Source: Gordonia westfalica (GTDB taxonomy: Bacteria; Actinomycetota; Actinomycetes; Mycobacteriales; Mycobacteriaceae). Taken from it: DNA of 64,000 nt. Positions 23,013-45,202 of this stretch are shown piece by piece. Position numbers and translations under genes: made by a program. A model generated the notes under the pieces. That model did no database searches. It saw only the letters and a list, made by a program, of their open reading frames with translations, and was not told where the DNA came from. Within the stretch, counting starts at the first letter, position 1, and each line of letters starts with the position of its first letter. The DNA is taken from positions 1 to 64,000 of the forward strand of contig NZ_FNLM01000034.1 in NCBI RefSeq assembly GCF_900105725.1, given 5' to 3'.

Positions 23013-23193
23013 TGTGCAATAAGCGTGCAATACCGGCCTCGGCTCCGTTCGGAGTTGGGGCCGTCTGTTGTTGCACGGCTGTGTCGTCGGCAAGGTCCTC
23101 CGACACCACCCAACCCGAGGTTGTCGGACGGTTTGGGGCCGGGGTGCGAGTCTTTCCGCGATGTCTGACCTGCGTCGGGTTAGATGTTGCTCC

Positions 23194-28796: not shown

Positions 28797-31700
28797 ATGT
28801 ACTTCGGCAGCGTTGAACTTCCTGCACAGCTCATCGATGCTCACGCCGCCGGACGGTTGGTTATCTTCGTCGGTGCTGGTGCATCGATCGGCCGGCCTTC
28901 GTCGCTCCCCAGTTTTGAAGGCTTGGTGGGTGAGATCCGAGACGGAAGCAATCTTTCCTCCGTCTTTTCGGACGAGGATCTCAAGAGGTTGCCATTGGAC
29001 GAGATCCTTGGAAGGCTTCGTGACGACTACGGCGTCGACGTTCACCGCCGGGTGTTTGAGATCGTGTCTAGAAAAGACTCGCGACCAGCGCCGCTACACA
29101 AAGCCATCGCCGCGTTGTCATCTGCCTCGACTATTCGAATAGTGACTACAAACTACGACGTTCACCTGTCCTCTGTACTTGGGGATCATGATCTAGTCGA
29201 GTACCTCGCGCCTGCCCTGCCACTCGGAGATGACTTCGCGGGGATGGTGTACCTCCACGGGCGACTTGATCAGGAGCATCATCGCCTAATCGTGACCGAC
29301 GAGGACTTTGGCAAGGCATACCTGACCGATGCGTGGGCCGCACGTTTTCTTGACCGAATGTTCGGCGAGTACCCAGTGCTTTTTGTTGGATATAGCCACA
29401 ACGACACAATCATGAAGTATCTGGCCCGCGGACTGGGGAGACGTGCGGATAAAAGGTATGCGTTGACGTCGGACCCGGATACGACATTCTGGCGGCGACT
29501 GGGGATCAGTGCGATCTGCTGTCCTCGTGAGGAACAGGCAGCGGTTCTGAACGACTGGGCTACCCGAAGCACGGAGGGGCTACTCGGTACGCGTGACCGG
29601 GTGAGGCGGATAGTTGCGGACCAAGAACCATCGCCGGTGCCGGAGGCTGTTTCCTTCCTTGAAGAGGTTCTGGCGAACAGAGATAGCGTCCGGTTCTTCT
29701 GCGAGTTTGCGAGAGGTGATGGGTGGCTTCAGTGGGTCTCTGGCAGACATGAGTTCGCTTCAGTCTTTCATTCATCGCCTAATATCGATCCAGAAATTAC
29801 ACGCGAACTCGCGAACTGGTTTGCTGAGACGTATATTCTTGATGATAACGAGTCGGACACAGCGTTCGAGCTTGCTGTTAATGCCGGAGGCGCATTGGGT
29901 GATGACCTCAGCATTGCGGTAGTTCGGCAGCTGATGGAGTTAGGCCCTCCACTCTCAGAGCGAGTGAGGCGTTGGTTGCTCTTGGTTGCCAGCGGTCGGA
30001 ATAACCGCAATTTGTCCTCGTACCTGGCGATGTTACTTGAAAATCACACCTTAGAGCAGGATTCTGACGTTGCCCTATTCTTGATCGATTATTTATCTGA
30101 ACCGATGATATTGCCGGCGAGTTCATTTTCCCAGATCTTAGGGGCAAGATTTGAGCCCTCGATGCGCGAGAGTGACGCATCACTCAGGGACGCATGGGAA
30201 CGAATTTTCCGCCCTCATTTAGGAGAATTCTCCCACCAACTTCTCGATATCGTGGAGAGGCATCTTCGTCGCGCTGACCTGCAACTGAGGGTGGCCGGCG
30301 ACGATGACCGGCGCCGGCCGTCGAGTATTTATGTCTCGAGCATTTCGGTCGGTACTGGCATCGGTGGCTCGATTGGGCTTCTTGTAGACATTGGCCGTGA
30401 ATGTCTGGAAAAGATGTTGGAGGCAGGGGGTCATGACGTTGAGATGCGGCTTCGCTCATGGCAATCCAGCGAGGTTGTCCTGCTACGCCGGTTGGCTGTA
30501 CTCGGATGGACACAACGCCAGGACGTGACGGGTGATGAGAAGACTGGGTGGCTCCTAGGGGCTGGGTGGCTAACTGACTACCAGCTAAGGGAAGAGATAG
30601 GCGGGTTGGTATCGGAGAGTTGCTCTTCGGCCAGCGACCAGTCGATTGCGTCGCTTGTAGATGCTATCCGTGAGCATTGGGAAGAGGACAAGTACGCTCC
30701 GCGTCGAGCAAAGAGTCTGCTGAAGCTGATCAGCGAGTCCGCCGAAGCAAGTTCGCAAGAACCGGTCATTGCGGCACTTGCCGAGCTACAGGCAGCTCAT
30801 CCCGAACTGGTTGAGAACGAGAACGCGGTCGAGTCCGTATCCGAGCCGGGCAACTGGGCGGCAGCTCCGCCCTCTGACAAACTTGAGCTGCATCGGCAAC
30901 TGGTGGACGAGCCCAAGTCCACGGTGGAGGCCCTAGTGAAATGCGAGTCGTCCCTCTCGGGCTGGGACGATGAGCGACGGTGGGAAGCTCTCGCTGGGGC
31001 TATGCGTGCTGTGTTGCAGGAGTCGCCAGACCTAGGGCTCGTGGTGCTCGATGAAGGTGGTAACGGCCGGTCGTTGGTCGAAAGGGTAGTCGTCCAGGGG
31101 TGGAGTGTGGCGAATCCGGATGACGCGTTGGCGAGCATCATCCTCAAGCGTATCGCTGCTATGCAGATCGAACCCATCTTGGGAAATGTGACAAGCATGA
31201 TTGGTGGCTTTGTAGCTACAGGAGAAGCGTTGGTCGAGTGGTTTCGCTACGACGAGAGTGAGGAGCTTGCCAAGAAGTGTTGGCTATCAATGGATCCAAC
31301 TACCACGAGTTTCATTCAGCGTGCCGACGATCACGCCTTGCTTGCGCTCAACCATCCTGCTGGCCATCTCGCTGAATACTGGGTAGATAGAATCGGTCAT
31401 CTCTGGCGTATGGCTGAAGACAGTTGGCGAGGCATTCCACCAAATGTCGCTGACTATATTGCTGAAATGATTGAGGGGAATGATTCCCGGAGCGAGTCGG
31501 CTGTAATTAGATTCTGCGGATTTCTAGCCTTCTTCCATTCCGCAGACCCGATTTGGTGTAAGCAATACCTTTTTCCTTTGCTAATTTGGAATGATAGTTC
31601 GAGTGCTGCCAAAGCATGGAGTGGTTTTCTCTCGCACGGTCAATGGAGCCAGAAGCTCCTTGACGATGGATTCTTGGGCATGCTGATAGGTTCAGTCCCG

Positions 31701-32288
31701 CATCGAGAAGACCTTGACGGTCCAGGTCAGAGGCATCTGCCTTTCCTACTGGCTAAGGTTGCCGTCGCTGCCGAAACTAATCCTTCGGACTGGCTGGCTG
31801 ACTTCGTAACTAGCAGTGAAGTGTCTGATCGGGTGTCGTGGGCGCAGGCTATCGGGCGTGAACTCGGCAAGCTTGACGCAGCGTCGGCCGAGCAACAGTG
31901 GGAACGCTGGATAGGTGCCTATGTGCGTGATCGCATCCGAAGCGTTCCGCGGATGCTTGATAGCGATGAGGCGTCTGCAATGCTCAGCTGGCCACTTGCG
32001 CTGACCACTTCGCTTGAGCAGGCAATCGACTTGATCCTGGAGGTCGAGACCTCGGGTCTCGAAAATCGTGATCTGTTCCTTCACAACCTAACCGACGAGC
32101 GGATTGCCCTTGCGCCCCAGAAGATTGCGGAATTGCTGTATCACGTGTTGAAGGACACTGCTGCGGACTTCTATATGGGGCACCTACTAAAAGATGTGCA
32201 TAATCGCTTGAAATTTTCTGGGGTCAATTCGGAGACTCTTCGCAGGATTGAGGAAGAAGCAATGCGGTTGGGGTTCGGAATTGACTAA
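28797..32288 (+). CDS. SIR2-DUF4020-type anti-phage protein
   Basis: This large 1163-residue protein opens with a SIR2 NAD-binding domain in residues about 15-260: LVIFVGAGASIGRPSSLPSF, IRIVTTNYDVHLSSVLGD, the MVYLHGRLDQEHHRLIVTDE histidine segment, and VLFVGYSHNDTIMKYLARGL. The rest is helical repeat sequence. Residues about 850-1150 resemble DUF4020 (ALNHPAGHLAEYWVDRIGHL, then SAAKAWSGFLSHGQW). SIR2 proteins with large C-terminal sensor regions are NAD-depleting abortive-infection systems. The codon use is far less GC-rich than the flanking genes, with many A/T-ending codons, which indicates transfer. A 250-base stretch without a gene follows it. The DUF4020 assignment is from recall. Confidence 0.78.
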   Translation: MYFGSVELPAQLIDAHAAGRLVIFVGAGASIGRPSSLPSFEGLVGEIRDGSNLSSVFSDEDLKRLPLDEILGRLRDDYGVDVHRRVFEIVSRKDSRPAPLHKAIAALSSASTIRIVTTNYDVHLSSVLGDHDLVEYLAPALPLGDDFAGMVYLHGRLDQEHHRLIVTDEDFGKAYLTDAWAARFLDRMFGEYPVLFVGYSHNDTIMKYLARGLGRRADKRYALTSDPDTTFWRRLGISAICCPREEQAAVLNDWATRSTEGLLGTRDRVRRIVADQEPSPVPEAVSFLEEVLANRDSVRFFCEFARGDGWLQWVSGRHEFASVFHSSPNIDPEITRELANWFAETYILDDNESDTAFELAVNAGGALGDDLSIAVVRQLMELGPPLSERVRRWLLLVASGRNNRNLSSYLAMLLENHTLEQDSDVALFLIDYLSEPMILPASSFSQILGARFEPSMRESDASLRDAWERIFRPHLGEFSHQLLDIVERHLRRADLQLRVAGDDDRRRPSSIYVSSISVGTGIGGSIGLLVDIGRECLEKMLEAGGHDVEMRLRSWQSSEVVLLRRLAVLGWTQRQDVTGDEKTGWLLGAGWLTDYQLREEIGGLVSESCSSASDQSIASLVDAIREHWEEDKYAPRRAKSLLKLISESAEASSQEPVIAALAELQAAHPELVENENAVESVSEPGNWAAAPPSDKLELHRQLVDEPKSTVEALVKCESSLSGWDDERRWEALAGAMRAVLQESPDLGLVVLDEGGNGRSLVERVVVQGWSVANPDDALASIILKRIAAMQIEPILGNVTSMIGGFVATGEALVEWFRYDESEELAKKCWLSMDPTTTSFIQRADDHALLALNHPAGHLAEYWVDRIGHLWRMAEDSWRGIPPNVADYIAEMIEGNDSRSESAVIRFCGFLAFFHSADPIWCKQYLFPLLIWNDSSSAAKAWSGFLSHGQWSQKLLDDGFLGMLIGSVPHREDLDGPGQRHLPFLLAKVAVAAETNPSDWLADFVTSSEVSDRVSWAQAIGRELGKLDAASAEQQWERWIGAYVRDRIRSVPRMLDSDEASAMLSWPLALTTSLEQAIDLILEVETSGLENRDLFLHNLTDERIALAPQKIAELLYHVLKDTAADFYMGHLLKDVHNRLKFSGVNSETLRRIEEEAMRLGFGID

Positions 32289-32542
32289 GAGGGCGCTCTC
32301 GCGACATTGACCGGGTGGAAATCGATTCGGGATAGTCAGGCTAGCGAATCTTGTCTACCTTCTATTCGGGGAGTGTGGGTGGTTCGTCGAAGTGGTCCGA
32401 GAACGGGGCGATGAGCATTGTCAGGACCAATGTGAGTAGTGACGGCACGCTATTCGAACGGATCAGCACATCAGATTCAGATCGGGTTATTCATTGGCGA
32501 GGTTGGGCTCGCCCGCTAGCTTGGCGAATAGGGCGTCTGATT

Positions 32543-33631
32543 TCAGATGCCGAGCGGTACCGCGACGTCGGCGCCGCCCTCTTCGGTGATCCGCGCCCCC
32601 ATCCGGGTGAAATGTGGGTGTGGGGATGAATCCGCCGGCGAAGAGTGCTTCTCCTTGCCGGAATTCGGGGGACTCCGCCAGCATGTGTTCGCCGACGAAC
32701 CCGAAGGTGTCGGCCAGCTCGGCGAGATCGCGCGGCGCGTTCATCCGCATCAGGCACAGGTTGTCGCACTGGGACAGCACGTTGGGGTGGATCTTGGTCG
32801 GGCGCTGCGTCGAAAGCAGAAGCCAGAGACCGAATTGGCGGCCTTCGGCGGCGATCTGCACGACACGCTCGATCAGGGCCTGCTCCACCGCGGTGGTGGC
32901 GTTGGGTGGGCAGATGTTGTGGGCCTCGTCGATCACGATGAGGATGGGACGGCGTTCCTCGCGGCGCGCCCCCAGGTGCTCGAGGACGCTGAGCGCCGCG
33001 ACCTTGGGTTCGGCCGGATGGGCGAAGCCGCCCAGATCGAGGACCGTCGCCTGCGGACGCTCGTCGATGATGTCGGTGGCCGCCACCTCGCCCAGAGGTC
33101 CCAGTTGAGGACCTGGAGATTCTCGATTCGTGTGGCCAGCCGCCGGTGTCCGGGGTCGTCGGAGGAGCGCAGCGCGGTGGCATACGTGCCCTCGTCGAGC
33201 GGGCCCGCGTCGCTGAGGTTGGCGTCGGCGTGCAGCAGGACGTTGTACTCGTCGGCGTCGGCGATCGGATCCAGCTGCAGGACGGCGGCCTTCGCGGTCA
33301 GTGGCAGTTCGGTGAACCGCGTCCGCAACTGAGGGAGGTCGCGCCGGGTCGAGTGCAGCACTCGGATGTCGGCTGCGACGATGGCGGCGGCGGTTTCGGG
33401 GTCACTGGTGTCGCGCGTCTCCGGCATCCGGGTGAAGTCGGCGTTCGGATCGAGGATGAGCAAGGGGAGTCGAGTGTTCAAGAGCAGCTGCTCCAGCACC
33501 ACCCCGAGGGCGTAGGTCTTTCCCGATCCGCTCTGACCGCACCAGAAGGTGTGCCGGTTGAACTTGTGCGCGGAGAGGACGACCTCGCTCGTCGAATCGT
33601 CGCGATGATCTCCCACTGTCAGCTGAACCAC
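32543..33631 (-). pseudogene. HerA-like ATPase, frameshifted copy
   Basis: This is a second copy of the gene at 38461-39555, in the same orientation. The first part is intact from GTG 33631 (VVQLTVGDHRDDSTSEVVLS, then FWCGQSGSGKTYALGVVLEQ). A deletion of about five bases near 33088 after NWDLWA breaks the frame; it resumes as TDIIDERPQATVLDLGGFAH with IVIDEAHNICPP. One extra base near 32610 breaks it again close to the 3' end. The original frame would have ended at 32543. Similarity to the intact copy runs from about 32556 to 33685, with many silent differences, so the duplication is not recent. Confidence 0.88.
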
Positions 33632-33782
33632 GACTGAACAATACGGCTTCGGCGGTCTCGGCATCGAGTCGCAGGGTTGCGCGGCGCGGCGTCGAGGAAC
33701 CACTATCTGAGGCCACAGTCACGATTTCCGGCCAGCGCGTCTGAGCCTTGACCAGCGACTTCGCGGGGCTGCCGGATCGTGG

Positions 33783-34730
33783 TCAACACCGGTCGAGCCC
33801 ACCGAACCGGGCGAGCAGCCGGTCGATCGCGCTGCAGTCCTGGAGGAATCGCGAGCGGTCGGGATCGTCGGCGACCTCGCGCAGCATCGCGTCGCCGTCC
33901 GGGATCTGCTCGGCGGCGAGGATCGCCGACCACACGGCCGTGTCGGTGGCCGTGAACGCCTCGACCCCGTCGCGCAGGGCCCGCGCCAGGAACGTCCGGT
34001 CGTCGGAGTCCAGCTTGTCGTGCACCATCGCGATCATCTCGACGGCGACCGAGGCGTGCGCGCGTTCGTCGCGGCGGTGCAATGCGACGGTGGCCTGGTG
34101 CACCGGCTGGATCGTCGGGTCGGTGGCGATCAAGGTCAGGTAGTCGCCGATGGAGGTCTCCGCGACCGTCGCGTACGCCAGGGTCGTCAGGGCCGCCGCT
34201 CGTGGCGAGTCCGCCCGCGCGACCGCCTCCCGATGCCCGCGCACGGTCGACGACTGCGGCAGCGTTGCGTCCGGCAGCGCCCAGCCGCGACGACGGCGGG
34301 TGAGCGCGGACGCGTTCAGGTGCATCAGCGTGTGGTATTCCTCGTCGACCATCGACTGCACCACCGCCGCCCGGCCGGCATCCGAGAACCCGGTGCCGAA
34401 GGCGTCGCGGAACAACAGTCCGAAAGCGGGTGTCACGACGTCCTGTTCGACGTCGACGACGTCCTTGTTGTAGGCGATCCACCCCCACGCACGGACCCGG
34501 GACCGGACATCCTCGTCGAGCCGCTCCCAGTTCGGGTGCCCGGCGAACGGGAGCAGCGACTCGGGGTAGTCGACACGGGTGTCGTCGTAGAGGTCGTCCA
34601 TCGTGGGTACGTCGAGTTCGGTTTCGTTGCGCCGCACCGTCGCCCGCCGCGGCCAGCTGCGGACCAGCCCGCTGATCACCGCCGTCTCCAGCGGATCGGA
34701 GGCGTCGTGATCGGGGAGGTGGCCGGTCAT
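33783..34730 (-). CDS. AurF-type diiron arylamine N-oxygenase
   Basis: This 315-residue all-helical protein has the AurF/CmlI ligand pattern: Glu in VVDVEQDVVTPAFGLL, then VDEEYHTLMH, Glu in YATVAETSIGDYL, then HRRDERAHASVAVE. That is two E-x(n)-(D)ExxH half-sites plus an extra His. AurF oxidises p-aminobenzoate to p-nitrobenzoate, and CmlI oxidises the arylamine of the chloramphenicol precursor. The ATG at 34730 overlaps the stop of the dehydrogenase gene (ATGA), so it is the last gene of the operon. The context points to 4-aminophenylalanine or 4-aminophenylpyruvate as substrate. The N-terminus begins MTGHLPDHDASDPLE. Substrate and final oxidation state are inferred. Confidence 0.8.
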   Translation of the reverse strand: MTGHLPDHDASDPLETAVISGLVRSWPRRATVRRNETELDVPTMDDLYDDTRVDYPESLLPFAGHPNWERLDEDVRSRVRAWGWIAYNKDVVDVEQDVVTPAFGLLFRDAFGTGFSDAGRAAVVQSMVDEEYHTLMHLNASALTRRRRGWALPDATLPQSSTVRGHREAVARADSPRAAALTTLAYATVAETSIGDYLTLIATDPTIQPVHQATVALHRRDERAHASVAVEMIAMVHDKLDSDDRTFLARALRDGVEAFTATDTAVWSAILAAEQIPDGDAMLREVADDPDRSRFLQDCSAIDRLLARFGGLDRC

Positions 34731-35608
34731 GGCGACAGTCCTTCGAACATCCGCGCGCACAGTTTCGCGTACTCGTCTGCGTGACCGCCCAGCGGGACAC
34801 CGGCGTCGACGAGCAGTGCGGTGAAATCGTCCGTGTCACCATCGGCGGCGGCAGAAACCCGGGACACGGCCCGCGCCAACGCCTCCCGCGCCGCCGGCGC
34901 ACAACGGTTGGACGCCTGCACGTCCCGATACACCGCGGGCGAACCGCCGGTGACCCGCGCCAGCAGCGCCGACATCGTCGTGAACGGGGGCGTGGCCAGT
35001 GCCGCCGCCTCGTCGGCGTCCACCCCGAGATCGGCGAGCGCACATCCGAACGCCAGGATCGTCGCGTGCGTGAGGGCCTGTACCGCGGCGCACACCCGGT
35101 CGTGGCGGTCCGCGGTCGTGACCTCGATCCGGGCGCCCCACCGGGCCAGGTCCTCGAGCAGACCGTCCGCGCCCGGGCCGTCACGATGGACGACCACCGC
35201 AACCGGACGGCCGGGCAACCCCAGGGACGGCGCGAACATCGGGTTGATCCCGACGATCGGCCCGCCCCGATCGGGATCGGCCCCGCCCAGATCGGCTACG
35301 GCCGCAGCGAACTGAGACTTGACCGATAGCGTCTCGACCACCAGCGCCGTCGGCCGTAGCCGCGATCGCAACGCCTCCACCGCAGTGAGGGCCACCTCCT
35401 CCGGCACCGCGAGGGCCACGACGTCCGCCTCGTACAGTCGTGCAGACGCTTCCGGGCCCGGACATCGGATGTCGTCGCCGCAGCGGGCATCGAGGACGTG
35501 TACGGTGTTCCCGTCAGCGCGCCACCGGTCGGCGAGCATCGTCCCGACGGCCCCCGCTCCTCCGGCGACGACCACCGACCGAGCGCCGGGGGCGGGCGAT
35601 CCGGTCAC
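34727..35608 (-). CDS. papC: 4-amino-4-deoxyprephenate dehydrogenase (PapC/CmlC-like)
   Basis: This 293-residue protein has an N-terminal Rossmann NAD(P) domain (SVVVAGGAGAVGTMLADRW, residues about 11-29) and the prephenate dehydrogenase landmarks VVETLSVKSQFA (about 90) and GINPMFAPSLGLPGRPV (about 117). A helical C-terminal domain contains HDRVCAAVQALTHATILAFG. TyrA-type enzymes oxidatively decarboxylate prephenate. Here the partner genes make the 4-amino analogue, so the product would be 4-aminophenylpyruvate. It starts at GTG 35608, overlapping the synthase stop. PapC is named by analogy with the pristinamycin pathway. Confidence 0.78.
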   Translation of the reverse strand: MTGSPAPGARSVVVAGGAGAVGTMLADRWRADGNTVHVLDARCGDDIRCPGPEASARLYEADVVALAVPEEVALTAVEALRSRLRPTALVVETLSVKSQFAAAVADLGGADPDRGGPIVGINPMFAPSLGLPGRPVAVVVHRDGPGADGLLEDLARWGARIEVTTADRHDRVCAAVQALTHATILAFGCALADLGVDADEAAALATPPFTTMSALLARVTGGSPAVYRDVQASNRCAPAAREALARAVSRVSAAADGDTDDFTALLVDAGVPLGGHADEYAKLCARMFEGLSP

Positions 35609-37728
35609 GGCTCCTTCTCATCGGCGACGGACAGGCAGCGTCGCATCGACAGTGCCTTCACCATCGTCTCCTCGAACTCGTCGTCCGGATCCGACAAGGC
35701 GACGATCGCGCCCCCGACCCCGAACGTCACCTCGGAATCGGTCGCGACCATCGTGCGGATCACGATCGACAGGTCGGCGGTTCCCGTCAGCGAGAAGTAG
35801 CCGATCGCTCCCGAATACACCCCGCGCGGACCGGCTTCGAGTTTGTCGATGATCTCCATCGTGCGGATCTTCGGCGCCCCGGTCATCGAGCCGCCCGGGA
35901 ATGCGGCCCGCACACAGTCGACCGCCGAGCACTCCTCACGGAGCGTCCCGCGCACCGTCGACACCAGCTGGTGCACCGGCGCGTACGTCTCCACGTCGAA
36001 CAGTGACGGGACGTGCACCGACCCGGGCACGCAGACGCGCGACAGGTCGTTGCGGACGAGATCGACGATCATCAGGTTCTCCGCCCGATCCTTCTCGCTT
36101 TGTCGAAGGTCGGACTGTAACCCCCGATCCTGCACGGGATCCGCCGACCGCGGCCGGGTGCCCTTGATCGGTTTCGACTCCACCGTCCGGTCCGCCCCCA
36201 CCTTCAAGAACCGCTCCGGGGACGCGCTGAGCACCGATATCCCCGAGAACTGCAGCAACGCGCTGTACGGCATCGGGCTGATCTCGCGCAGGCACGAGTA
36301 GCCGGACGTTGGGTCGAGGCTGCGGTGCACGGTCGCCGAGTTCGTCAGGCACACCTCGTACGACTCGCCGGACCGGATCTCGGCGAGGCATTGTTCGATG
36401 AGTCGCAGATACGTCGGGTGGTCGTGCCGGAATACGACCGGCACCTCGTGCGGCGCCTGGATGAGCGGGGGAGCAGTCGCCGCCGGTCCGGGCAGCGGGT
36501 CGCGCATGTCCCGGATGGTCGACGCCGTCTCGCACAACCACTGCGCGGTCTCGGGGTCTGCGGTGTCGGGGTCTGGGCTGTTGACCGGCTCGAGTGCGAG
36601 CAAGTACGCGCACCCGCGCTCGTGATCGATCACCACGGCCCGGTCCGCGAACACCAGGGCCGCGTCGGCCTGCTCGGAGGCGTGTGCCAACTGTCCGCCG
36701 GTGTCCGCTTTGAGTTCGTAACCGAGATAGCCGACATAGCCGAGACAGAACCCGAACGGTAGATCCGACTGCGGCGCCACCGACCGTTCCCGCAGTTGCG
36801 CGTCGAGGTAATCGAAGAAGGTACTGCGGATCTCCTCCACGCCACCGTCCGAATGTTCCACCCGCACGGTCATTTCCGGGACCCGGTAGGTCACGTATTC
36901 GGCGCGCGGCCCCGAGCAGTCGCCCATCACGGAGAATCGGCTGCCTGCTTCGTTGGCCGCGGACCCGTCCAGCCAGTAGCTGTTCGGTCCACCGGCGAAC
37001 AGCCGCTGATATACCGCCTCAGGGTCGACGATCCGGTCCACCCGCTCCGACCGAACGCGGTAACGGTGTGCCGGAGTCGCCGGCGTTGCCTGTGCCACCC
37101 CGGTTGTCGGCAGGGTCGGGGAAACTGTCGCAGTCGTCGGTACCGACCGGCGTGCCCGCACCGGCGTCGCCGCCGCGAAGTTCGCCAGCAGCTCGCGACC
37201 GAACTCCGTGCAGATCGACTCCGGATGGAACTGCACGCCCCACAACGGCAGTTCCCGGTGACGCACCGCCATCAGGACACCGTCGTCCGACCACGCCTGT
37301 GCCTCCAGCACGTCGGGGATGTTCATCACCGCCAGCGAGTGGTATCTCACCGCCCGGAACGGGGACGGCAGCCCGGCGAACAGGTCTCGGCCGTCGTGGT
37401 GGACACTGCTGATCCGTCCGTGTCGCGGCTCAGGGGACGGCACCACCGGACTGCCGAACACATGACACAGGCCCTGATGTCCCAGGCAGACCCCGAGCAC
37501 GGGAAGTCCGCCGTCGGTCATGGCCCGCGTGCTGATCCCGAAGTCGCGGACGTAGTCCGGGCGACCCGGGCCGGGGGAGACGACCACGTTGTCGAACGCC
37601 CCCAGGTCCACCGACGCCCATGGCACGTCGTTGGCGACGACCACTGGTTCCCGGCCGTTGACCTCGGTCAACAAGGCGTACAGGTTGTACGTGAACGAGT
37701 CGTAGTTATCGATCAGCAGTGTGCGCAC
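35605..37728 (-). CDS. papA: 4-amino-4-deoxychorismate synthase, fused PabA-PabB (PapA-like)
   Basis: This 707-residue fusion begins with a class I glutamine amidotransferase (residues 1-190: LLIDNYDSFTYNLYALLTEV, nucleophile in GVCLGHQGLCH, triad partners in GVQFHPES). After a Pro/Ala/Thr linker comes a chorismate-utilising domain (from about 230) with PIKGTRPRS, ENLMIVDLVRNDLSRV, GSMTGAPKIRTMEIIDKLE and YSGAIGYFS. The lysine in PIKGT is characteristic of aminodeoxychorismate synthases rather than anthranilate synthases, which have PIAGT. Such fusions occur in antibiotic pathways (PapA, CmlB). I chose the GTG at 37728 (MRTLLIDNYDSF) with GAGG about 10 bases upstream. Confidence 0.88.
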   Translation of the reverse strand: MRTLLIDNYDSFTYNLYALLTEVNGREPVVVANDVPWASVDLGAFDNVVVSPGPGRPDYVRDFGISTRAMTDGGLPVLGVCLGHQGLCHVFGSPVVPSPEPRHGRISSVHHDGRDLFAGLPSPFRAVRYHSLAVMNIPDVLEAQAWSDDGVLMAVRHRELPLWGVQFHPESICTEFGRELLANFAAATPVRARRSVPTTATVSPTLPTTGVAQATPATPAHRYRVRSERVDRIVDPEAVYQRLFAGGPNSYWLDGSAANEAGSRFSVMGDCSGPRAEYVTYRVPEMTVRVEHSDGGVEEIRSTFFDYLDAQLRERSVAPQSDLPFGFCLGYVGYLGYELKADTGGQLAHASEQADAALVFADRAVVIDHERGCAYLLALEPVNSPDPDTADPETAQWLCETASTIRDMRDPLPGPAATAPPLIQAPHEVPVVFRHDHPTYLRLIEQCLAEIRSGESYEVCLTNSATVHRSLDPTSGYSCLREISPMPYSALLQFSGISVLSASPERFLKVGADRTVESKPIKGTRPRSADPVQDRGLQSDLRQSEKDRAENLMIVDLVRNDLSRVCVPGSVHVPSLFDVETYAPVHQLVSTVRGTLREECSAVDCVRAAFPGGSMTGAPKIRTMEIIDKLEAGPRGVYSGAIGYFSLTGTADLSIVIRTMVATDSEVTFGVGGAIVALSDPDDEFEETMVKALSMRRCLSVADEKEP

Positions 37729-37738
37729 CGCGACCACC

Positions 37739-38170
37739 TCAGTCCACGTCGATGTTGCCGGCGCCGTCCGCGGCCGTCCGCTCGGCGAGGACACGATCCG
37801 GGCCCTCGTGCCCGACCGGAACCCCGTTCGTCCGCAACTCCTCGGTCGCGACGATGAGGTCTTCCACACGGCAGGTCTCCGCGATGAGCAGGTCATAGAG
37901 GTCGTGCAGGAACTGTGGGGAGAGCCCGTGGTCGAGGGCGTACCGGTGGGCGTGCTCGTGCACCGCTCCGACGCGGCGCGGCTGCATCACCGGAATGGCG
38001 GGCCGCTCCTTGAGATGCGCGATGCGGGTGCACACCTCTATCCGGGCGCGCACGTCCTCGAGGAGCCGGTCGTCGATGTCGTCCAGCTCCGCACGCAGAT
38101 GCCCGAGTTCCCGTGTGCCGAGGTCGCCGTCGCCCCTCATCGGCGCATTGTTGCCCGTCGATCCATTCAT
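37739..38170 (-). CDS. papB: chorismate mutase-type enzyme (4-amino-4-deoxychorismate mutase, PapB-like)
   Basis: This 143-residue AroQ-fold protein contains LRAELDDIDDRLLEDVRARI, VCTRIAHLKERPAIPVMQPR and HDLYDLLIAETCRVEDLIVA, with the AroQ active-site Arg and Lys positions visible. It would rearrange 4-amino-4-deoxychorismate to 4-amino-4-deoxyprephenate. It is the first gene of the operon. It ends 10 bases before the synthase start. The ATG at 38170 gives the normal family length; the frame stays open upstream but without conserved sequence. Confidence 0.82.
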   Translation of the reverse strand: MNGSTGNNAPMRGDGDLGTRELGHLRAELDDIDDRLLEDVRARIEVCTRIAHLKERPAIPVMQPRRVGAVHEHAHRYALDHGLSPQFLHDLYDLLIAETCRVEDLIVATEELRTNGVPVGHEGPDRVLAERTAADGAGNIDVD

Positions 38171-38460: not shown

Positions 38461-39555
38461 TCAGGCGAGCAACGGCACCCCGACGTCGGCGCCGCCCTCT
38501 TCGGTGATCCGAGCCCCCATTCGGGTGAAGGTGGGCGTGGTGATGAATCCGCCGGCGAAGAGGGCTTCACCCTGGCGGAATTCGGGTGACTCGGCCAGCA
38601 GGTGTTCGCCGACGAATCCGAAGGTGTCGGCGAGTTCGGCGAGGTCGCGTGGTGCGTTCATCCGCATGAGGCACAGGTTGTCGCACTGGGACAGCACGTT
38701 GGGGTGGATCTTCGTCGGGCGTTGTGTCGACAGGAGAAGCCAGAGTCCGAATTTGCGGCCCTCGGCGGCGATCTGCACGACGCGATCGATCAGGGCCTGC
38801 TCGACGGCGCTGGTGGCGACGGGCGGGCAGATGTTGTGGGCCTCGTCGATCACGATGAGGACGGGGCGTCGTTCTTCACGGCGGGCCCACAGGTGTTCGA
38901 GCACGCTGAGTGCGGCGACCTTGGGTTCGGCCGGGTGGGCGAACCCGCCCAGGTCGAGCACTGTGGCCTGTGGGCGTTCGTCGATGATGTCGGTGGCCGC
39001 GACCTCGCCCCGCGCCCACAGGTCCCAGTCGAGGACCTGGAGGTTCTCGATCCGTTTGGCGAGCCGCTGGTGGCCGGGGTCGTCGGAGGCGCGTAGCGCG
39101 GTGAGGTAGGTGCTCTGGTCGGGACTGGCGGCGCCGGAGATGGCGGCGTCGGCGTGGAGCAGGACGTTGTATTCGTCGGCGTCGGCGATCGGATCCAGCT
39201 GCAGGACGGCGGCCTTGGCCGTCAGCGGTAGTTCGGTGAACCGCGTCCGCAACTGGGGCAGGTCGCGTCGGGTCGTGTGCAGTACCCGGATGTCGGATTC
39301 TTCGACGGCCGCGGCGACGTCGGGGTCGGTGGTGTCACGCGTCTCCGGTAGCCGGGTGAAGTCGGCGTTCGGGTCGAGGATGAGCAGTGGGAGCCGTGTG
39401 TTGAGGAGCAGTTGCTCCAGCACCACTCCGAGTGCGTAGGTCTTTCCCGATCCGCTCTGGCCGCACCAGAAGGTGTGCCGGTTGAACTTGTGTGCGGAGA
39501 GAACGACTTCGGACGTCGCGTCGTCGCGATGGCTTCCCACTGTCAGCTGAACCAC
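38461..39555 (-). CDS. HerA-like ATPase (intact copy)
   Basis: This 364-residue P-loop ATPase of the HerA/FtsK-like DUF87 group has Walker A in FWCGQSGSGKTYALGVVLEQ (near residue 32), Walker B in RPVLIVIDEAHNICPP (near 225), a sensor-type WLLLSTQRPTKIHPN, and an arginine segment MRMNAPRDLAELADT. Unlike archaeal HerA there is no HAS-barrel domain of normal length at the N-terminus. It begins at GTG 39555 (VVQLTVGSHRDDATSEVVLS). It probably acts on DNA, but no nuclease partner lies beside it. It follows a 100-residue hypothetical protein and a recombinase-like protein on the same strand. Confidence 0.78.
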   Translation of the reverse strand: MVQLTVGSHRDDATSEVVLSAHKFNRHTFWCGQSGSGKTYALGVVLEQLLLNTRLPLLILDPNADFTRLPETRDTTDPDVAAAVEESDIRVLHTTRRDLPQLRTRFTELPLTAKAAVLQLDPIADADEYNVLLHADAAISGAASPDQSTYLTALRASDDPGHQRLAKRIENLQVLDWDLWARGEVAATDIIDERPQATVLDLGGFAHPAEPKVAALSVLEHLWARREERRPVLIVIDEAHNICPPVATSAVEQALIDRVVQIAAEGRKFGLWLLLSTQRPTKIHPNVLSQCDNLCLMRMNAPRDLAELADTFGFVGEHLLAESPEFRQGEALFAGGFITTPTFTRMGARITEEGGADVGVPLLA

Positions 39556-39665
39556 GAGTGAACAATACGGCGTCGGTGGACTCGGCACCGACTCGCAGGG
39601 CCGCGTGCCGTCGGGCAAAGTCGGTCAGATCCGTTCGACCTCGTCGAACACGATGGTGTCGCTGC

Positions 39666-39968
39666 TCATCTGCCGGCGTGCCGCAGGTGCCCGTACAGTG
39701 CCGCGCGGTATCCGCGCGTGTAGCTGGGTTCCTCGTCATCCGGGTCGGGCGGGCAGTCGAGGGTCGACGACGCGAGCTGACGTGCCCACGGTGCCGGGAG
39801 TGAACACAGGGCGGCCTCCGCGTCGTCGAACCCCTTTTGGAACAGATCGGGATCGAGGTGCTCGTCGAGGTCGGCGTCGTAGATGGGGAACGAGGTGGGC
39901 AGCCGCGTGACGACGCCGTATTCGGTGACGATGTCGAGTTCGGGGAGCTCGTTCTCATGATTCGTCAA
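39666..39968 (-). CDS. hypothetical acidic protein
   Basis: This 100-residue protein is strongly acidic (DADLDEHLDPDLFQKGFDDA, then PPDPDDEEPSYTRGYRAAL). I recognise no family. The ATG at 39968 overlaps the stop of the upstream recombinase-like gene (ATGA), so the two are translationally coupled. It ends 110 bases before the ATPase gene. Confidence 0.7.
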   Translation of the reverse strand: MTNHENELPELDIVTEYGVVTRLPTSFPIYDADLDEHLDPDLFQKGFDDAEAALCSLPAPWARQLASSTLDCPPDPDDEEPSYTRGYRAALYGHLRHAGR

Positions 39969-40573
39969 CGGACCGTACGCCTTTCGGCGAGGGTGCGGTA
40001 GAGCGTCGCGCGACTGACTCCCAGCGCCTGGGCGATCCTCGGTACGGATTCGCCTGCGGCCCGCATCTGTTCGGCGCGCAGCACCTGCTCGTCGTCGAGG
40101 ACTCGCGGGCGCCCGACGGTCGACGCCGGTCGCCGGCTCGCCGTCGTCAGTGGTCTCGCCGAGTCGAGCGTGGGGGAGGGGTCGTCGAGTTCGGCCAGGG
40201 ACGCGAGGACGCCGACGACCATCGCGCCGGTGGGATCGTCGGTGTCGATCCCCTCACGCAACGAGCGGAGGCCGATGCGGCGTTTCGCGAGTTCGCGTGT
40301 GATGGCCATGACTTCGCGAATGTTACGGCCGAGGCGATCGATTCCCACAACGACGGTCGTGTCACCGGCCCGCGCGTAGTCCAGCAGCGCATTCATGCCC
40401 GCCCGACGGTCCGCGGACCGAACCCGGTCGGCGGCGTCGGAGTAGATCCGTCCCGGATCCACCCCGGCTTCCGTCAATGCGTCGATCTGTGGACCGAGAG
40501 CGTGGGCTCCCGGGGTCTCGCGCGCGTATCCGAGGGCCATTCCCGGTGCGCCACCTCTCGCTTCGTCCGTCAC
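39965..40573 (-). CDS. serine recombinase-like protein lacking the catalytic serine
   Basis: This 202-residue protein has a resolvase N-terminal fold: MALGYARETPGAHALGPQID, then IYSDAADRVRSADRRAGMNA, TTVVVGIDRLGRNIREVMAI, and RSLREGIDTDDPTGAMVVGV. A linker and a resolvase-type HTH follow (GRPRVLDDEQVLRAEQMRAA, then VPRIAQALGVSRATLYRTL). The usual YxRVST motif with its nucleophilic serine reads YARETP here, so the nucleophile is replaced by threonine or shifted. The long E-helix after the LAELD segment is also shortened. It may therefore bind DNA as a regulator without recombining. It starts at GTG 40573. Confidence 0.75.
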   Translation of the reverse strand: MTDEARGGAPGMALGYARETPGAHALGPQIDALTEAGVDPGRIYSDAADRVRSADRRAGMNALLDYARAGDTTVVVGIDRLGRNIREVMAITRELAKRRIGLRSLREGIDTDDPTGAMVVGVLASLAELDDPSPTLDSARPLTTASRRPASTVGRPRVLDDEQVLRAEQMRAAGESVPRIAQALGVSRATLYRTLAERRTVR

Positions 40574-40712: not shown

Positions 40713-40913
40713 ATTGTCGGATTACGAGCTGCGTGTGCTGGGCCCCGGGCCACCGGACAGAACCCGAGGTGATCGGACGCTGCGTCGCAGGGGGAGTGCG
40801 CGCCGACTGTCGGGTTTCGATCACGGTGCGCACAAGCAGTGCCCCGGCAAACCGGACGCACCTAGGGTGCAGCAGTCGTAGTCGCGTCCCTCGTCGTGAA
40901 AGAAGCAGCACTC

Positions 40914-42332
40914 GTGTCCCAAGAACCTGTCCGTCCACTCCACTTCGCGGCGTTCGTCATGAACACCACGAGCCACATCGTCCAGGGCACGTGGCGTCGC
41001 CCGTCGTCGAGGTCGGCAGACTTCAACGATCTCGACCACTGGGTGAATCTCGCGAAGACGCTCGAGCGTGGAAAGTTCGACGCCATATTCTTCGCCGACG
41101 TCGTCGGGCTCTACGCCCCGTACCGCGGTGACGAGCGGAAGTACTTCGAAGCGGGTCTGCAGGTCCCGAGCAACGACCCGAGCGTGCTCGCCAGCGCGAT
41201 CGCCTATGCGACCGAGCATCTCGGGATCGCATTCACCGCGAGCATTCTGCAGGAGCATCCGTTCAACTTCGCCCGCCGGATCTCGACGCTCGACCACGCG
41301 ACGAAGGGTCGTATCGCATGGAACATCGTGACGAACTACCTGCCCAATGCCAGCCGCAACTTCGGTCTCGAAGGACTGACCGCCCACGATGCGCGTTACG
41401 CGTGGGCCGACGAGTACGTCGACGTCACCTACAAGCTCTGGGAGGGCAGTTGGGACGACGACGCGCTGCTGCAGGACCGTGAGCGCGGCATCCACGCCGA
41501 ATACGACAAGGTCCACCGCATCAACCACATCGGAGAGCGGTACCAGGTCGAAGGGCCACACCTGGTGTCGCCGAGCCCCCAGCGCACGCCGTTCCTGTTC
41601 CAGGCGGGTGCCTCCGAGGCCGGCCGTGACTTCGCGGCGCAGAACGCCGAAGCAGTGTTCCTCGGAACACCCAACCGTGAAGCCGCACTGCGGGACACCT
41701 CCGACATCCGCAGGCGTGCGGTCGCGCTCGGGCGCCGAGCCGACGACCTGAAGTTCTTCCAGGGCCTGTACGTCGTGCCGACGTCGACCGAAGCCGAAGG
41801 AGCACGAGTCGCGGCGGAACTCGACGAGTGGATCGACCACGACGGCCACCTCGCGCACATGTCGGGCTCCATCGGCATCGACTTCGGTCACGACGACCTC
41901 GACACCCCGGTCGGCGAGATCAAGACCGAGGGAGTCCGGTCCATGATCGGCTGGATCAACGACCTCGTGACCGACCGCCCGGCCACGCTGCGCGATGTCG
42001 CGCACCACACCGCGACCAATCTCCGCATCGTCGGGACCCCGGAGAAGATCGCCGACGAGCTCGCTGCCTGGCAGCAGAGCGGCGTCGACGGCATCAACCT
42101 CATGAACTACGAGATCCCCACCTCATACGAGGATTTCGTCGACCAGGTGATCCCGACTCTGCGCAAGCGTGGTCTCATCCAGAGCGAGTACTCCGACGGT
42201 ACGCTGCGTCAGAAGATCTTCGGCGAAGGGGATCGGTTGCCGGATCGCCATCACGCCACGCGGTACCGCGGTGCGTTCGGGGCGGGAGTGACCAGAGCTC
42301 CGGACGAGACGCTCGCAGGTGCGGTGAACTGA
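40914..42332 (+). CDS. NtaA/DszA-family flavin-dependent monooxygenase
   Basis: This 472-residue bacterial luciferase-like TIM-barrel enzyme has MNTTSHIVQGTWRRP near residue 16, then FDAIFFADVVGLY, ISTLDHATKGRIAWNIVTNY, the flavin-site segment FLFQAGASEAGRDFAAQNAE, and a C-terminal GTPEKIADELAAW. Members cleave nitrilotriacetate, sulfones (DszA) and alkanesulfonate-like substrates with FMNH2 supplied by a separate reductase. I chose GTG 40914 because AAAGAAG lies about 9 bases before it; GTG 40896 is the alternative. A second, related copy is encoded at 43820-45202. The substrate is unknown. Confidence 0.85.
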   Translation: MSQEPVRPLHFAAFVMNTTSHIVQGTWRRPSSRSADFNDLDHWVNLAKTLERGKFDAIFFADVVGLYAPYRGDERKYFEAGLQVPSNDPSVLASAIAYATEHLGIAFTASILQEHPFNFARRISTLDHATKGRIAWNIVTNYLPNASRNFGLEGLTAHDARYAWADEYVDVTYKLWEGSWDDDALLQDRERGIHAEYDKVHRINHIGERYQVEGPHLVSPSPQRTPFLFQAGASEAGRDFAAQNAEAVFLGTPNREAALRDTSDIRRRAVALGRRADDLKFFQGLYVVPTSTEAEGARVAAELDEWIDHDGHLAHMSGSIGIDFGHDDLDTPVGEIKTEGVRSMIGWINDLVTDRPATLRDVAHHTATNLRIVGTPEKIADELAAWQQSGVDGINLMNYEIPTSYEDFVDQVIPTLRKRGLIQSEYSDGTLRQKIFGEGDRLPDRHHATRYRGAFGAGVTRAPDETLAGAVN

Positions 42333-42509
42333 CGAATACGCAGCTCTTCGTGCCCGCGGTGATCACCAGATCGTCGCGGGCACAGTGTATTGCACGGGTT
42401 ACCCGGACTGAGGTCGCGTGCGACATCGCTTAGGACGCGCGAACTCGGCCGAAGGTGCAGAGCCTGATCGACATCGCGTGCGACTTCGTTCCGGCGGAGG
42501 GAATGCGAC

Positions 42510-42542
42510 AAGGGCCTGGCGACGTGATGTCGCCAGGCCCTT
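42510..42542. terminator. bidirectional terminator between converging monooxygenase genes
   Basis: A perfect 14-bp stem AAGGGCCTGGCGAC (42510-42523) pairs with GTCGCCAGGCCCTT (42529-42542) with loop GTGAT. The gene-free stretch 42333-42623 holds nothing else that I can recognise. Confidence 0.75.
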
Positions 42543-42623
42543 CGAGGCTCGTCGCTTGCGCTCCTCGCACTCAGGGAGCAGTTGGGTGTGTCTAGCTCTG
42601 AGCTCCAGGGTGCAGTGGTGCGG

Positions 42624-43823
42624 TCAGAAGTACCCGTTCGCCGGCAGGGGAGTGTCGTTGACCAGGAGGTCACCCAGGGCGATCGCCTTGTACGACGTCG
42701 GGTTGTGCAGGGTCACGGTGCGGATGTTGCGCCAGTGCCGGTCGAGGTTCTTGGCCCGGCTCGCCGACGACGCTCCGCCGACGTCGAACAGGTCTGCGGC
42801 AGCACGCAGTCCGACACGATCGATGTGGACCTTCACCCGCGCGGCCGCCACCGACGCCTTGACGAACAGATCGGGCTCGATCATGCCGCTGCGTGCCGGC
42901 GCGAACGCCTCCTCGACGGTCCGTGCGGCGTCGAGGACGGCGGCCCGCGCCACGTGGGCGGCTGCGTCGATCTCACCCACGGTCCCGAGCAGTACCGGAT
43001 CATGACGCGGTTCATCTGCCGGAGCGTGATCGAAAGTCCTTGAGCGCGAACGCAGCAGGGCGGTCGCATCATCGGTGACCGACAACAGGATTCCGGTGAT
43101 GAGTGCCTGCAGATAGAGCTGCAGGAACGGCCCGTCGTTGGCGATCGCCGCGGTCGACGCCGGGTCGGTGAAGGCGAGGACGTCGTCGGCGGTCACCCGG
43201 ACGTTGTCCAGGGTGGTGGTGCCGGTACCGGTGCGGTTCTGGCCGATCCCGTCCCAGTCGTCGACGATGCTGATGCCGGCCCGGTCGACGGGCAGGACGA
43301 TCCGCGCGACCTGGCCGTCGAAGTCCCCGCCTCGTACGGTCGCGGTGACCGAGACGTAGTCCGAGAACGCGGTGCCGGTGCTGTAGAACTTGGCCCCGGT
43401 CAGCAGCCACCCGCCGTCGACTGCTTTCAGCTGGGTCTGGAAGGACAGCGATCCGGCGTTTCCGGTGCGTTCGCTGGTCGCGTTCCCGAACACCTTGCCC
43501 GCGGCGATCTCCGCGACCCACCGGTCGCGCACGGACCCGTCGGGGAACCGGCGGATCTGCTCGACGAACCAGAAGTGCGCCCGCAGGATGTGGGCGACGA
43601 TCGGGTCTGCACGCGCCAGATCGATGAGGAACTCGAACAGCTCGGGTGCGCCGGCCCCGGGGCCGGACGCATCGTCGAGAGTCAAAGCGGTGTAACCCGA
43701 TTCGCTCAGCAATCGCACCTGGGCGTGCGGGTCGGTCCCGGTCAGCTCACGCGCAGCCGCATCGGCCGCGATCTCGGCCAGGACTGTCGAACGGTCGGCG
43801 ACGACCCGGGTCAGGACGCTCAC
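42624..43823 (-). CDS. DszC/SfnB-like flavin monooxygenase (acyl-CoA dehydrogenase fold)
   Basis: This 399-residue protein has the acyl-CoA dehydrogenase fold (FGNATSERTGNAGSLSFQTQ, GGWLLTGAKFYSTGTAFSDY, then the C-terminal HWRNIRTVTLHNPTSYKAIA). The RTVTLHNP ending is characteristic of the DszC/SfnB monooxygenases, which use FMNH2 and oxygen to oxidise sulfur or nitrogen substrates rather than acyl-CoA. It starts at GTG 43823, overlapping the stop of the NtaA-like gene (GTGA). The two enzymes are therefore made together, as DszC with DszA in desulfurisation operons. Confidence 0.83.
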   Translation of the reverse strand: MSVLTRVVADRSTVLAEIAADAAARELTGTDPHAQVRLLSESGYTALTLDDASGPGAGAPELFEFLIDLARADPIVAHILRAHFWFVEQIRRFPDGSVRDRWVAEIAAGKVFGNATSERTGNAGSLSFQTQLKAVDGGWLLTGAKFYSTGTAFSDYVSVTATVRGGDFDGQVARIVLPVDRAGISIVDDWDGIGQNRTGTGTTTLDNVRVTADDVLAFTDPASTAAIANDGPFLQLYLQALITGILLSVTDDATALLRSRSRTFDHAPADEPRHDPVLLGTVGEIDAAAHVARAAVLDAARTVEEAFAPARSGMIEPDLFVKASVAAARVKVHIDRVGLRAAADLFDVGGASSASRAKNLDRHWRNIRTVTLHNPTSYKAIALGDLLVNDTPLPANGYF

Positions 43824-45202
43824 ACCGGCACCTCGACCTTTTCCGCGAACGCACCGCGGTACGCCGCGGCGGGATGCGTCTCCGGCAGGGTGTCCCGACC
43901 GGTCAGCTTGCGCCGCGTCGTGCCGGGCGCATAGTCGTGCTGCGCGAGTCCGCGTTCACGCAGTACCGGCAGGACGTGCTCGGCGAACTCGACGTACGTG
44001 CCCGGGATCGTCGCGTTGATGACGTTGATGCCACCGACGCCGGCATCGCGCCACTCCGCCAGGCGATCGGCGATCTGTTCCGGAGTGCCGACGACACGTC
44101 CGCTGCGACTGCGCAGTTCGGCCAGGTCGCGGACGGTCGGTTCGCGGTCCGGCACGGCCTCGCGCAGCCACAGCAACGTGCTCTGCGTGCCCTCGGTCTT
44201 GATCTCGCCGATCGGGGTGTCGAGGTCGTAGAACCCGAGATCGAACCCCAGGCCGCCGGCCGAGTGGGCGATGATCGTACTCGGGTCGATGTACTGGTCG
44301 AGCTCGGCCGCCTTCCGGCGTGCCTCCTCCTCGGTACTCCCGATGACGAACGAAAGACCTTGGAAGAACTGGATGTCCTGCGGGTCCCGGCCGGCTTCGG
44401 CAGCCAGACGACGGGTGTCGTCGACGAGTCCCTTCGCAGCCTGCGGCGTGGGCGAGACGATGAACTGCGCCTCGGCATTACGGGCGGCGAACCGGCGGCC
44501 CGTCGGGGACGAACCGGCCTGGAACAGCACCGGCGTGCGCTGCGGCGAGGGCGCCACCAGGTGTGGACCCTCGACCCGATAGCGGTCGCCGACGTGATTG
44601 ATCTTGTGGACCTTGTCGAAATCGGCGTGGATGCCGCTGGCCTTGTCCTGGACCAGGGCGCCGTCATCCCAGCTGCCCTCCCAGAGCTTGAAGACGACGT
44701 CGACGTACTCCTCGGCCCACGCGTAGCGGTCGTCGTGGGCGGTGATCCCGTCGTATCCGAAGTTGCGCCAAGCATTTTGGGAGAGGCTCGTGACGATGTT
44801 CCACGCGATGCGCCCGTTGGAGGCGTGATCGAGCGTGGAGATCTTCCGGGCGAAGTCGAAGGGGTGTTCCTGCAGGATCGAGCTGGTGATGGCGATACCC
44901 AGGTTCTCGGTGTGCGACGCGAGTGCGGACGCGAGAACGAGCGGGTCGTTGCTGGGGATCTGCAGTCCGGTGTCGACGAATTTCTTCCAGTCGCCCTGGT
45001 AGTCGTCGTAGAGTCCGACGACGTCGGCGAAGAAGACGAAGTCGAACTTGGCTTTCTCCAACGTCTTCGCGAGGTCGATCCAGTGCTGCAGCGAGTTGAA
45101 ATCCGTCTGCCGGGCATCGGGAGCGCGCCACGCCCCGTGCAGGATGTGGGACGTCGTGTTCATCACAAAGGCGGCGAAACGCAAGGGTTTTGGCTCTGAC
45201 AC
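43820..45202 (-). CDS. NtaA/DszA-family flavin-dependent monooxygenase, second copy
   Basis: This 460-residue paralogue of the enzyme at 40914-42332 has the same landmarks: FAAFVMNTTSHILHGAWRAP, FDFVFFADVVGLYDDY, ISTLDHASNGRIAWNIVTS, and VLFQAGSSPTGRRFAARNAE. It starts at GTG 45202 and is coupled to the DszC-like gene behind it. It diverges from the transporter operon across a 211-base promoter region. Together they suggest uptake followed by oxidative cleavage of the same compound. Confidence 0.86.
   Translation of the reverse strand: MSEPKPLRFAAFVMNTTSHILHGAWRAPDARQTDFNSLQHWIDLAKTLEKAKFDFVFFADVVGLYDDYQGDWKKFVDTGLQIPSNDPLVLASALASHTENLGIAITSSILQEHPFDFARKISTLDHASNGRIAWNIVTSLSQNAWRNFGYDGITAHDDRYAWAEEYVDVVFKLWEGSWDDGALVQDKASGIHADFDKVHKINHVGDRYRVEGPHLVAPSPQRTPVLFQAGSSPTGRRFAARNAEAQFIVSPTPQAAKGLVDDTRRLAAEAGRDPQDIQFFQGLSFVIGSTEEEARRKAAELDQYIDPSTIIAHSAGGLGFDLGFYDLDTPIGEIKTEGTQSTLLWLREAVPDREPTVRDLAELRSRSGRVVGTPEQIADRLAEWRDAGVGGINVINATIPGTYVEFAEHVLPVLRERGLAQHDYAPGTTRRKLTGRDTLPETHPAAAYRGAFAEKVEVPV

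Follow-up and report, generated by a model that had tools for sequence, protein, structure and literature searches.

A four-gene operon of Gordonia westfalica predicted to form 4-aminophenylpyruvate and N-oxidise an arylamine, a possible detached precursor module for a nonribosomal peptide

Introduction

The pristinamycin genes papA, papB and papC, which are part of an antibiotic cluster, encode three enzymes that convert chorismate to 4-aminophenylpyruvate, the amine of which is then dimethylated. The nitro group of chloramphenicol is made by CmlI. Here we describe an operon of four genes in a 64,000-nucleotide stretch of the Gordonia westfalica genome (contig NZ_FNLM01000034.1, positions 1 to 64,000; this whole stretch is referred to as the window). 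The operon is predicted to encode the same three-enzyme route as the pristinamycin genes together with a CmlI-like N-oxygenase, and its amine would be oxidised, not dimethylated as in pristinamycin.

Two described systems combine such a route with N-oxidation. According to passages of PMC4249514, the cmlB, cmlC, cmlD and cmlI genes of Streptomyces venezuelae provide the synthase, mutase, dehydrogenase and diiron N-oxygenase of chloramphenicol biosynthesis, as the Gordonia genes are predicted to do, but three genes lie between cmlI and cmlB whereas the four Gordonia genes are coupled, and the cml genes share one cluster with the nonribosomal peptide synthetase (NRPS) CmlP, the hydroxylase CmlA and the halogenase CmlS, whereas no NRPS lies near the Gordonia operon. 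Obafluorin biosynthesis in Pseudomonas fluorescens is also similar, in that obaDEF and obaC are proposed in passages of PMC5490192 to give 4-aminophenylpyruvate and then, by N-oxidation, a nitro C3 acid; it differs in that obaF is a fused mutase/dehydrogenase gene and the oba cluster includes a transaldolase and an NRPS. The same passages propose that ObaC, which is 25% identical to AurF and 19% identical to the chloramphenicol enzyme, converts 4-aminophenylpyruvate to 4-nitrophenylpyruvate, and report 4-nitrophenylethanol and 4-nitrophenylacetic acid as shunt products. An NRPS beside the precursor genes, as in these two clusters, is not found at the ten Gordonia loci surveyed. No description of the operon in either Rhodococcus or Gordonia was found in the open-access literature searched: passages of PMC5550956 (Rhodococcus clusters) and PMC9680422 (Gordonia metabolism) name neither the operon nor a nitro-aryl product, no word in the main text of either begins with 'chorismate', 'aminobenzo', 'oxygenase' or 'chloramphenicol', and the only N-oxygenase named in passages of PMC12153302 is a lysine N-oxygenase.

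Organization of the operon

The four genes lie on the same strand in the following order.

37739–38170, minus strand: AroQ-type mutase, PapB/CmlD-like, a predicted 4-amino-4-deoxychorismate mutase
35605–37737, minus strand: fused PabA-PabB (PabAB), a putative CmlB-like 4-amino-4-deoxychorismate synthase
34727–35608, minus strand: TyrA-like dehydrogenase, probably PapC/CmlC-like, in which Asn122 replaces the His of the TyrA motif
33783–34730, minus strand: CmlI-like diiron protein of 315 amino acids (aa), a putative arylamine N-oxygenase

Only one base lies between the AroQ stop codon and the earliest codon at which PabAB can start. The PabAB/dehydrogenase and dehydrogenase/oxygenase junctions are GTGA and ATGA overlaps respectively, and the four genes are therefore probably translated together. 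PabAB may start at GTG 37737 or 37728, within a frame that is open up to ATG 37896. The start of the oxygenase favoured by its relatives is ATG 34730, which gives 315 aa, the length of close relatives. Four coupled genes on one strand had been predicted from the sequence in an earlier reading of the window (the original prediction), and both the coordinates and the gene families are borne out by the reading frames, the Pfam matches and the diagnostic residues; the oxygenase start proposed there, however, fits the upstream GTG at 34760. A consensus promoter scan found none, such a scan being uninformative for this GC-rich genus.

Synthase, mutase and dehydrogenase

PabAB matches the Pfam families GATase (3.6e-45) and Chorismate_bind (1.8e-87), and its best solved match in the Protein Data Bank (PDB) is 8hx6, a 4-amino-4-deoxychorismate synthase (813 bits). 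Among the 25 of 45 matching NCBIfam families that were listed, the pabB model TIGR00553 scores 359.2 bits, above its cut-off of 328.4, whereas all of the TrpE models fall below theirs (trpE_most, 309 versus 517.7), as does the fungal-type TIGR01823 (402.1 versus 442.55). The lysine of the PIKGT motif is present in PabAB and in 77 of 78 locus matches. These comparisons support the predicted assignment of PabAB as an aminodeoxychorismate, and not an anthranilate, synthase. An anthranilate or folate role was considered and set aside on the pabB and TrpE cut-offs, the 8hx6 match, and the further PabB/TrpE-like and PabA/TrpG-like copies in the genome. The mutase matches Pfam CM_2 (8.8e-15) and the chorismate mutase-like NCBIfam model TIGR01803 (78.8 bits versus a cut-off of 73.35), with profile scores computed on a frame extended to 38302.

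The dehydrogenase has a modest match to Pfam PDH_C (7.9e-10; 39.4 bits versus 22) and lies just under the threshold for PDH_N (25 versus 26.5), and it aligns with structure 2pv7 at 7.8e-18; its predicted TyrA-like character is upheld by the PDH_C and 2pv7 matches, which place it in the TyrA-type fold. The departure from this family is in a conserved motif, which reads GINPMF here as compared with GLHPMF in 2pv7 and GGHPMA in 2f1k, such that Asn122 takes the place of His. Asn occupies this position in all 110 locus matches, and the pattern [GA]xNPM fits 111 of 120 database homologues, the other nine being unmatched by the pattern. In prephenate dehydrogenases the motif His is catalytic and makes contact with the 4-hydroxyl group of the substrate, and the substitution is suggestive, short of proof, of an amino substrate. 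A PapC-like assignment is supported by the sequence, the comparison being with the solved prephenate dehydrogenases, from which the enzyme differs at the motif His.

The diiron oxygenase

The oxygenase belongs to the AurF Pfam family PF11583 (5.4e-46), but among solved structures it is nearer to CmlI (5hyg, 248 bits) than to AurF (3chh, 142 bits). A predicted model (mean pLDDT 88.8) superimposes on CmlI 5hyh with TM scores of 0.82/0.90 and 42% identity. AurF, the aureothin N-oxygenase (2jcd, 3chh), has the same fold and all seven iron ligands, but identity by fold is 32–33%, and the Gordonia enzyme falls far under the cut-off of the NCBIfam AurF model NF045603 (164.1 versus 620 bits), on which basis membership in AurF proper, a 4-aminobenzoate N-oxygenase, was rejected. 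Taking the AurF/CmlI set to comprise seven diiron ligands, and placing these by alignment, we find all of them present as E95, E130, H133, E191, H218, E222 and H225 (numbered from ATG 34730). They are kept in 115–117 of 117 locus matches (two matches end before four of the ligands, and in another the first His is replaced by Tyr), and the ligand columns are invariant in 33 aligned homologues. Sequence and predicted structure together support a CmlI-like, not an AurF-like, arylamine N-oxygenase fold. The AurF-type enzyme of the original prediction is therefore right as to fold and complete ligand set, although by bit score and identity the protein is closer to CmlI.

Distribution, NRPS linkage and history

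Within Gordonia, the oxygenase is present in 10 of 59 genomes and the dehydrogenase in the same ten; one further genome, the closely related G021, has just a 41-residue oxygenase remnant, which the search scored as an eleventh match. Nine of the ten loci contain all four genes, whereas the locus of G029 is without mutase and PabAB, and PabAB is absent elsewhere in that genome too. There is no NRPS beside the operon in any of the ten (the 64-kb window, in which no NRPS match is found at E 1e-4, and nine further loci of ~20 kb).

The situation is different in the relatives. In a family survey the oxygenase was found in 109 of 401 sampled genomes, representing 7 of 31 genera. The context of all 107 non-Gordonia matches was surveyed over up to 20 kb (some contigs being shorter) and scored with the window proteins and an NRPS. 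All four genes are present in the same order at 67 loci, with an NRPS at 59 and none at 8; the dehydrogenase and oxygenase only are present at 31 loci, with an NRPS at 29 and none at 2; and one partial locus, on a 4.4-kb contig, has no NRPS. The remaining 8 loci have no ordered pap gene, seven being lone oxygenases with no NRPS and the eighth (L149) having an NRPS, with the other genes 7–9 kb off. Overall, 88 of the 99 non-Gordonia loci that keep the dehydrogenase have an NRPS within about 10 kb, and in all 88 it is on the opposite strand, in convergent orientation. By comparison, at least 2.9–4.0% of the chromosome lies less than 10 kb from an adenylation (A) domain in three single-contig genomes, this base rate being a lower bound since 60 of the 129 A-domain matches in the three genomes were listed. 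The Rhodococcus loci (within L045–L141, L150 and L151) thus include 67 with the Gordonia genes in the Gordonia order and an oxygenase that is mostly 45–75% identical, but they differ in that a convergent NRPS accompanies 59 of these 67 loci and at least two of three gene families for an ABC-2 exporter lie near 16 of them, neither of which is seen in Gordonia. At least two of these exporter families, of each of which one member was annotated, occur at 44 of the 99 loci (14 + 2 four-gene and 27 + 1 two-gene loci).

The pathway genes need not lie together. In all eight tested genomes of the group labelled g6 in which the locus lacks mutase and PabAB, both are present elsewhere and adjoin an NRPS end, which matches the thioesterase region of the probe at 55–75%. 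In the four genomes that have the two sites on a single contig (G190, G345, G324 and G329), the distance between them is ~1 Mb, so pathway genes do lie split across the chromosome in relatives, and the g6 split is a precedent for their being spread over distant loci. At L082–L131 (g6, some g23) the dehydrogenase and oxygenase are near ribosomal protein genes (families f8 and f9, judged by eye) and a three-gene ABC-2 exporter. Seven g23-genus Rhodococcus loci (L142–L148) have an oxygenase paralogue with neighbours of its own, of which families f52–f54 are common to all seven, and the stretches fetched around it contain no pap genes.

The Gordonia oxygenase and PabAB are nested inside Rhodococcus sequences; in both trees their sister sequences, with support of 1.0, come from R. 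triatomae and Rhodococcus sp. RD6.2, and both of these loci are NRPS-linked. The ten Gordonia carriers are one clade. By identity to the der protein of one carrier, the ten and G021 are the closest set (the G035 match is partial, 99% over 270 residues), and therefore one gain and one loss suffice. Alongside the trees and synteny, we infer a direction of transfer in which the Gordonia clade would have acquired, or retained, just the precursor part of the gene set at this site. Pairwise dN/dS is 0.14–0.44 over the four genes against eight or nine Gordonia relatives, which argues against chance or dead frames and suggests that the genes are in use and maintained.

Proposed pathway and a candidate consumer

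The operon very probably encodes the conversion of chorismate to 4-aminophenylpyruvate, plus an N-oxidation. PabAB would convert chorismate to 4-amino-4-deoxychorismate, a step well supported by its sequence; the AroQ protein would rearrange this to 4-amino-4-deoxyprephenate; and the TyrA-like enzyme, with Asn for the motif His, would oxidise and decarboxylate it to 4-aminophenylpyruvate. A general aminotransferase, for which the operon has no gene, would then give 4-aminophenylalanine, and the CmlI-like oxygenase would act on the amine, either free or after loading, to form the nitro group. Finally, the product may be used by an NRPS encoded elsewhere in the Gordonia genome. We regard it as an even call that the operon is a detached precursor module of this kind, which would likely supply 4-nitro- or 4-aminophenylalanine in trans.

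One NRPS is a weak candidate for the consumer. The second-module A domain of a five-module Gordonia NRPS has orthologues in 12 of 59 genomes, comprising all ten carriers and 2 of the 49 others (G011 and G052); G021, with its oxygenase remnant, has none. All five modules could be read in the G. westfalica genome (G000) and in G003 and G011, and the open frame is ~6000–6250 aa in 10 of the 12 genomes, as compared with 3474 aa in G. westfalica and 2350 aa in G015. In G. westfalica the gene (contig C36, locus L234, 925–19418) has a frame split in module 3 into 3474 + 2731 aa, whereas the frame in G011 is open as far as fetched. One A domain of the Rhodococcus locus L137 clusters with the module-5 domain of the Gordonia NRPS, although the best L137 stretches are only 33–39% identical. 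Pocket codes, their positions placed by motif anchors, were considered and rejected as proof of 4-aminophenylalanine use, similar codes (DALF..., DAF...) being common among the 60 A domains of two Gordonia genomes.

Several observations weigh against the detached-module reading. First, the NRPS-linked loci share ancestry, and 88 of 99 does not represent 88 independent events; moreover, the 8 non-Gordonia four-gene loci noted above are also without an NRPS in the fetched stretch. Second, the carriers yielded no orthologue of the NRPS of R. triatomae, the best being 53% identical among the matches listed (17 candidates scored per genome), as compared with 69–82% among Rhodococcus NRPSs of the R. 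triatomae type. Third, the five-module NRPS is no orthologue of the operon-linked Rhodococcus NRPSs, since it is only 37–46% identical to them (best and L137 matches; about 40–46% for the best-matching ones), and none of the 60 A domains from the two carriers falls in the main operon-linked Rhodococcus clade (DAFF/DGFF/DALFV codes). Fourth, its frame is broken in the operon's own genome and short in G015. Finally, the A-domain pocket codes are nearly the same in G011, a genome without the operon, G029 retains the NRPS though its operon has lost mutase and PabAB, and with the carriers being one clade, the co-occurrence of NRPS and operon may come from shared ancestry.

Alternative explanations

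The main rival, unlikely but deserving serious consideration, is that the operon is a complete pathway to free 4-nitrophenylalanine, 4-nitrophenylpyruvate or a derivative such as 4-nitrophenylethanol, which would be the compound that the cell uses or releases. In that case the substrate of the oxygenase would be free 4-aminophenylpyruvate, in line with the proposal for ObaC in passages of PMC5490192, and an aminotransferase would be unnecessary. The absence of an aminotransferase gene from the operon is consistent with this, as are the ObaC proposal and the nitrophenyl shunt products of obafluorin reported in the same passages. The original prediction had likewise called the operon possibly stand-alone, and this holds for Gordonia, with no NRPS in the window or in the fetched flanks of any of the ten loci, and for the 8 further four-gene loci without one. 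It does not hold for the relatives at large, in which the gene set is NRPS-linked at 88 of 99 loci (59 of 67 with four genes and 29 of 31 with two). In addition, the window has no gene for an exporter, for resistance or for a downstream enzyme directly beside the operon, and the annotated neighbours shared among Gordonia loci are mostly core, GNAT, HerA, resolvase and DUF6389 genes. Of the new end product or use also suggested there, a new use is possible in Gordonia, although the usual neighbour of the gene set is an NRPS.

It is improbable that the oxygenase halts at a hydroxylamine or nitroso stage, leading to an azoxy or a metal-binding nitroso product. AzoC, of the AurF family, makes a nitroso analogue for the azoxymycins according to PMC6783550, but the nearest solved relative of the Gordonia enzyme is CmlI, the maker of the chloramphenicol nitro group; passages of PMC4249514 name CmlI as an N-oxygenase. 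Still harder to maintain is the notion that the operon arrived by horizontal transfer and is now decaying without a function: mutase and PabAB are gone from the G029 locus and G021 has a mere remnant, but nine of the ten Gordonia loci retain all four genes, the dN/dS values are those given above, and the iron ligands and PIKGT are kept. A spare route of primary metabolism to tyrosine, to the p-aminobenzoate of folate or to tryptophan can effectively be dismissed, for although the family of each domain also holds primary-metabolism enzymes, the pabB model scores above and the listed TrpE models below cut-off, further PabB/TrpE-like and PabA/TrpG-like matches lie elsewhere in the genome, the dehydrogenase has Asn for His, and the genes are coupled to one for an arylamine oxygenase.

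Genomic neighbourhood

The operon is flanked by the following features, the window annotation having covered selected open reading frames (ORFs).

38461–39618, minus strand: HerA-like ATPase, upstream copy with an open frame, outside the pathway (DUF87/HerA_C; PADLOC HerA, 5.6e-31)
32487–33703, minus strand: second HerA-like copy, downstream, with a disrupted frame (by blastn, 87% identical DNA to the upstream copy)
39965–40573, minus strand: serine resolvase-type recombinase (PF00239, 3.6e-20), near the operon in several Gordonia loci

A HerA-like copy is present downstream only in some Gordonia and upstream only in others, and the arrangement in G. westfalica looks intermediate. The resolvase is accompanied by a 100-aa ORF at 39666–39968. 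In relatives the operon site is between a block of core genes (der, cmk, rluB-like, scpB, scpA, parA-like and xerD-like) and, in several, the resolvase, the 100-aa ORF and the HerA-like ATPase. The annotation of shared Gordonia neighbours, which left out families c18, c19 and c24–c28, gives core genes, a GNAT protein, HerA, the resolvase and a DUF6389 protein, and at some loci luciferase-like and acyl-CoA-dehydrogenase-like proteins. The prediction that no NRPS, transporter or self-resistance gene adjoins the operon stands for the NRPS throughout the window; for transporters and resistance it stands for the immediate HerA-like neighbours only, a permease gene (47078–48100) and a cation-efflux gene (53838–54896) lying beyond them. 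Neither a CmlA hydroxylase nor a CmlS halogenase was among the selected window ORFs scanned, and no search aimed at them was made.

Between der (20912–22348) and the operon is a ~10-kb island of defence-like and mobile genes. Its members include an ApeA-like HEPN protein (23068–24546), a DDE transposase (25050–26558) and an integrase-like ORF (26551–27339). A SIR2-domain protein of 1163 aa (28797–32288), in a lower-GC stretch beside the broken HerA copy, is Dsr1-like by PADLOC and by NCBIfam (under the NCBIfam cut-off) and looks like an anti-phage defence gene. On the other side, 40896–45202 encodes two luciferase-like monooxygenases and an acyl-CoA-dehydrogenase-like protein, relatives of which are on the same side in L016, L017 and L019, and an enzyme dependent on thiamine diphosphate (ThDP) is encoded at 58601–60337, ~20 kb from the operon.

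Implications

Amino acids with a nitro-aromatic group seldom occur naturally and are of value as building blocks. A four-gene set as compact as this one, coupled in nature and including a CmlI-type oxygenase, would offer such a part ready-made. A further outcome of the survey is a large group of Rhodococcus loci, mostly NRPS-linked, that are without description in the open-access literature searched. As a tentative extension, we suggest that an entire 4-nitrophenylalanine operon may have come to Gordonia from Rhodococcus, leaving the NRPS behind, and been kept under selection as a free-standing supply of a nitro-aromatic amino acid. This would be either an end product in itself or a precursor for an NRPS at a distance of megabases. 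The Rhodococcus clusters of origin may make an undescribed and widespread family of nitro- or amino-aryl peptides.

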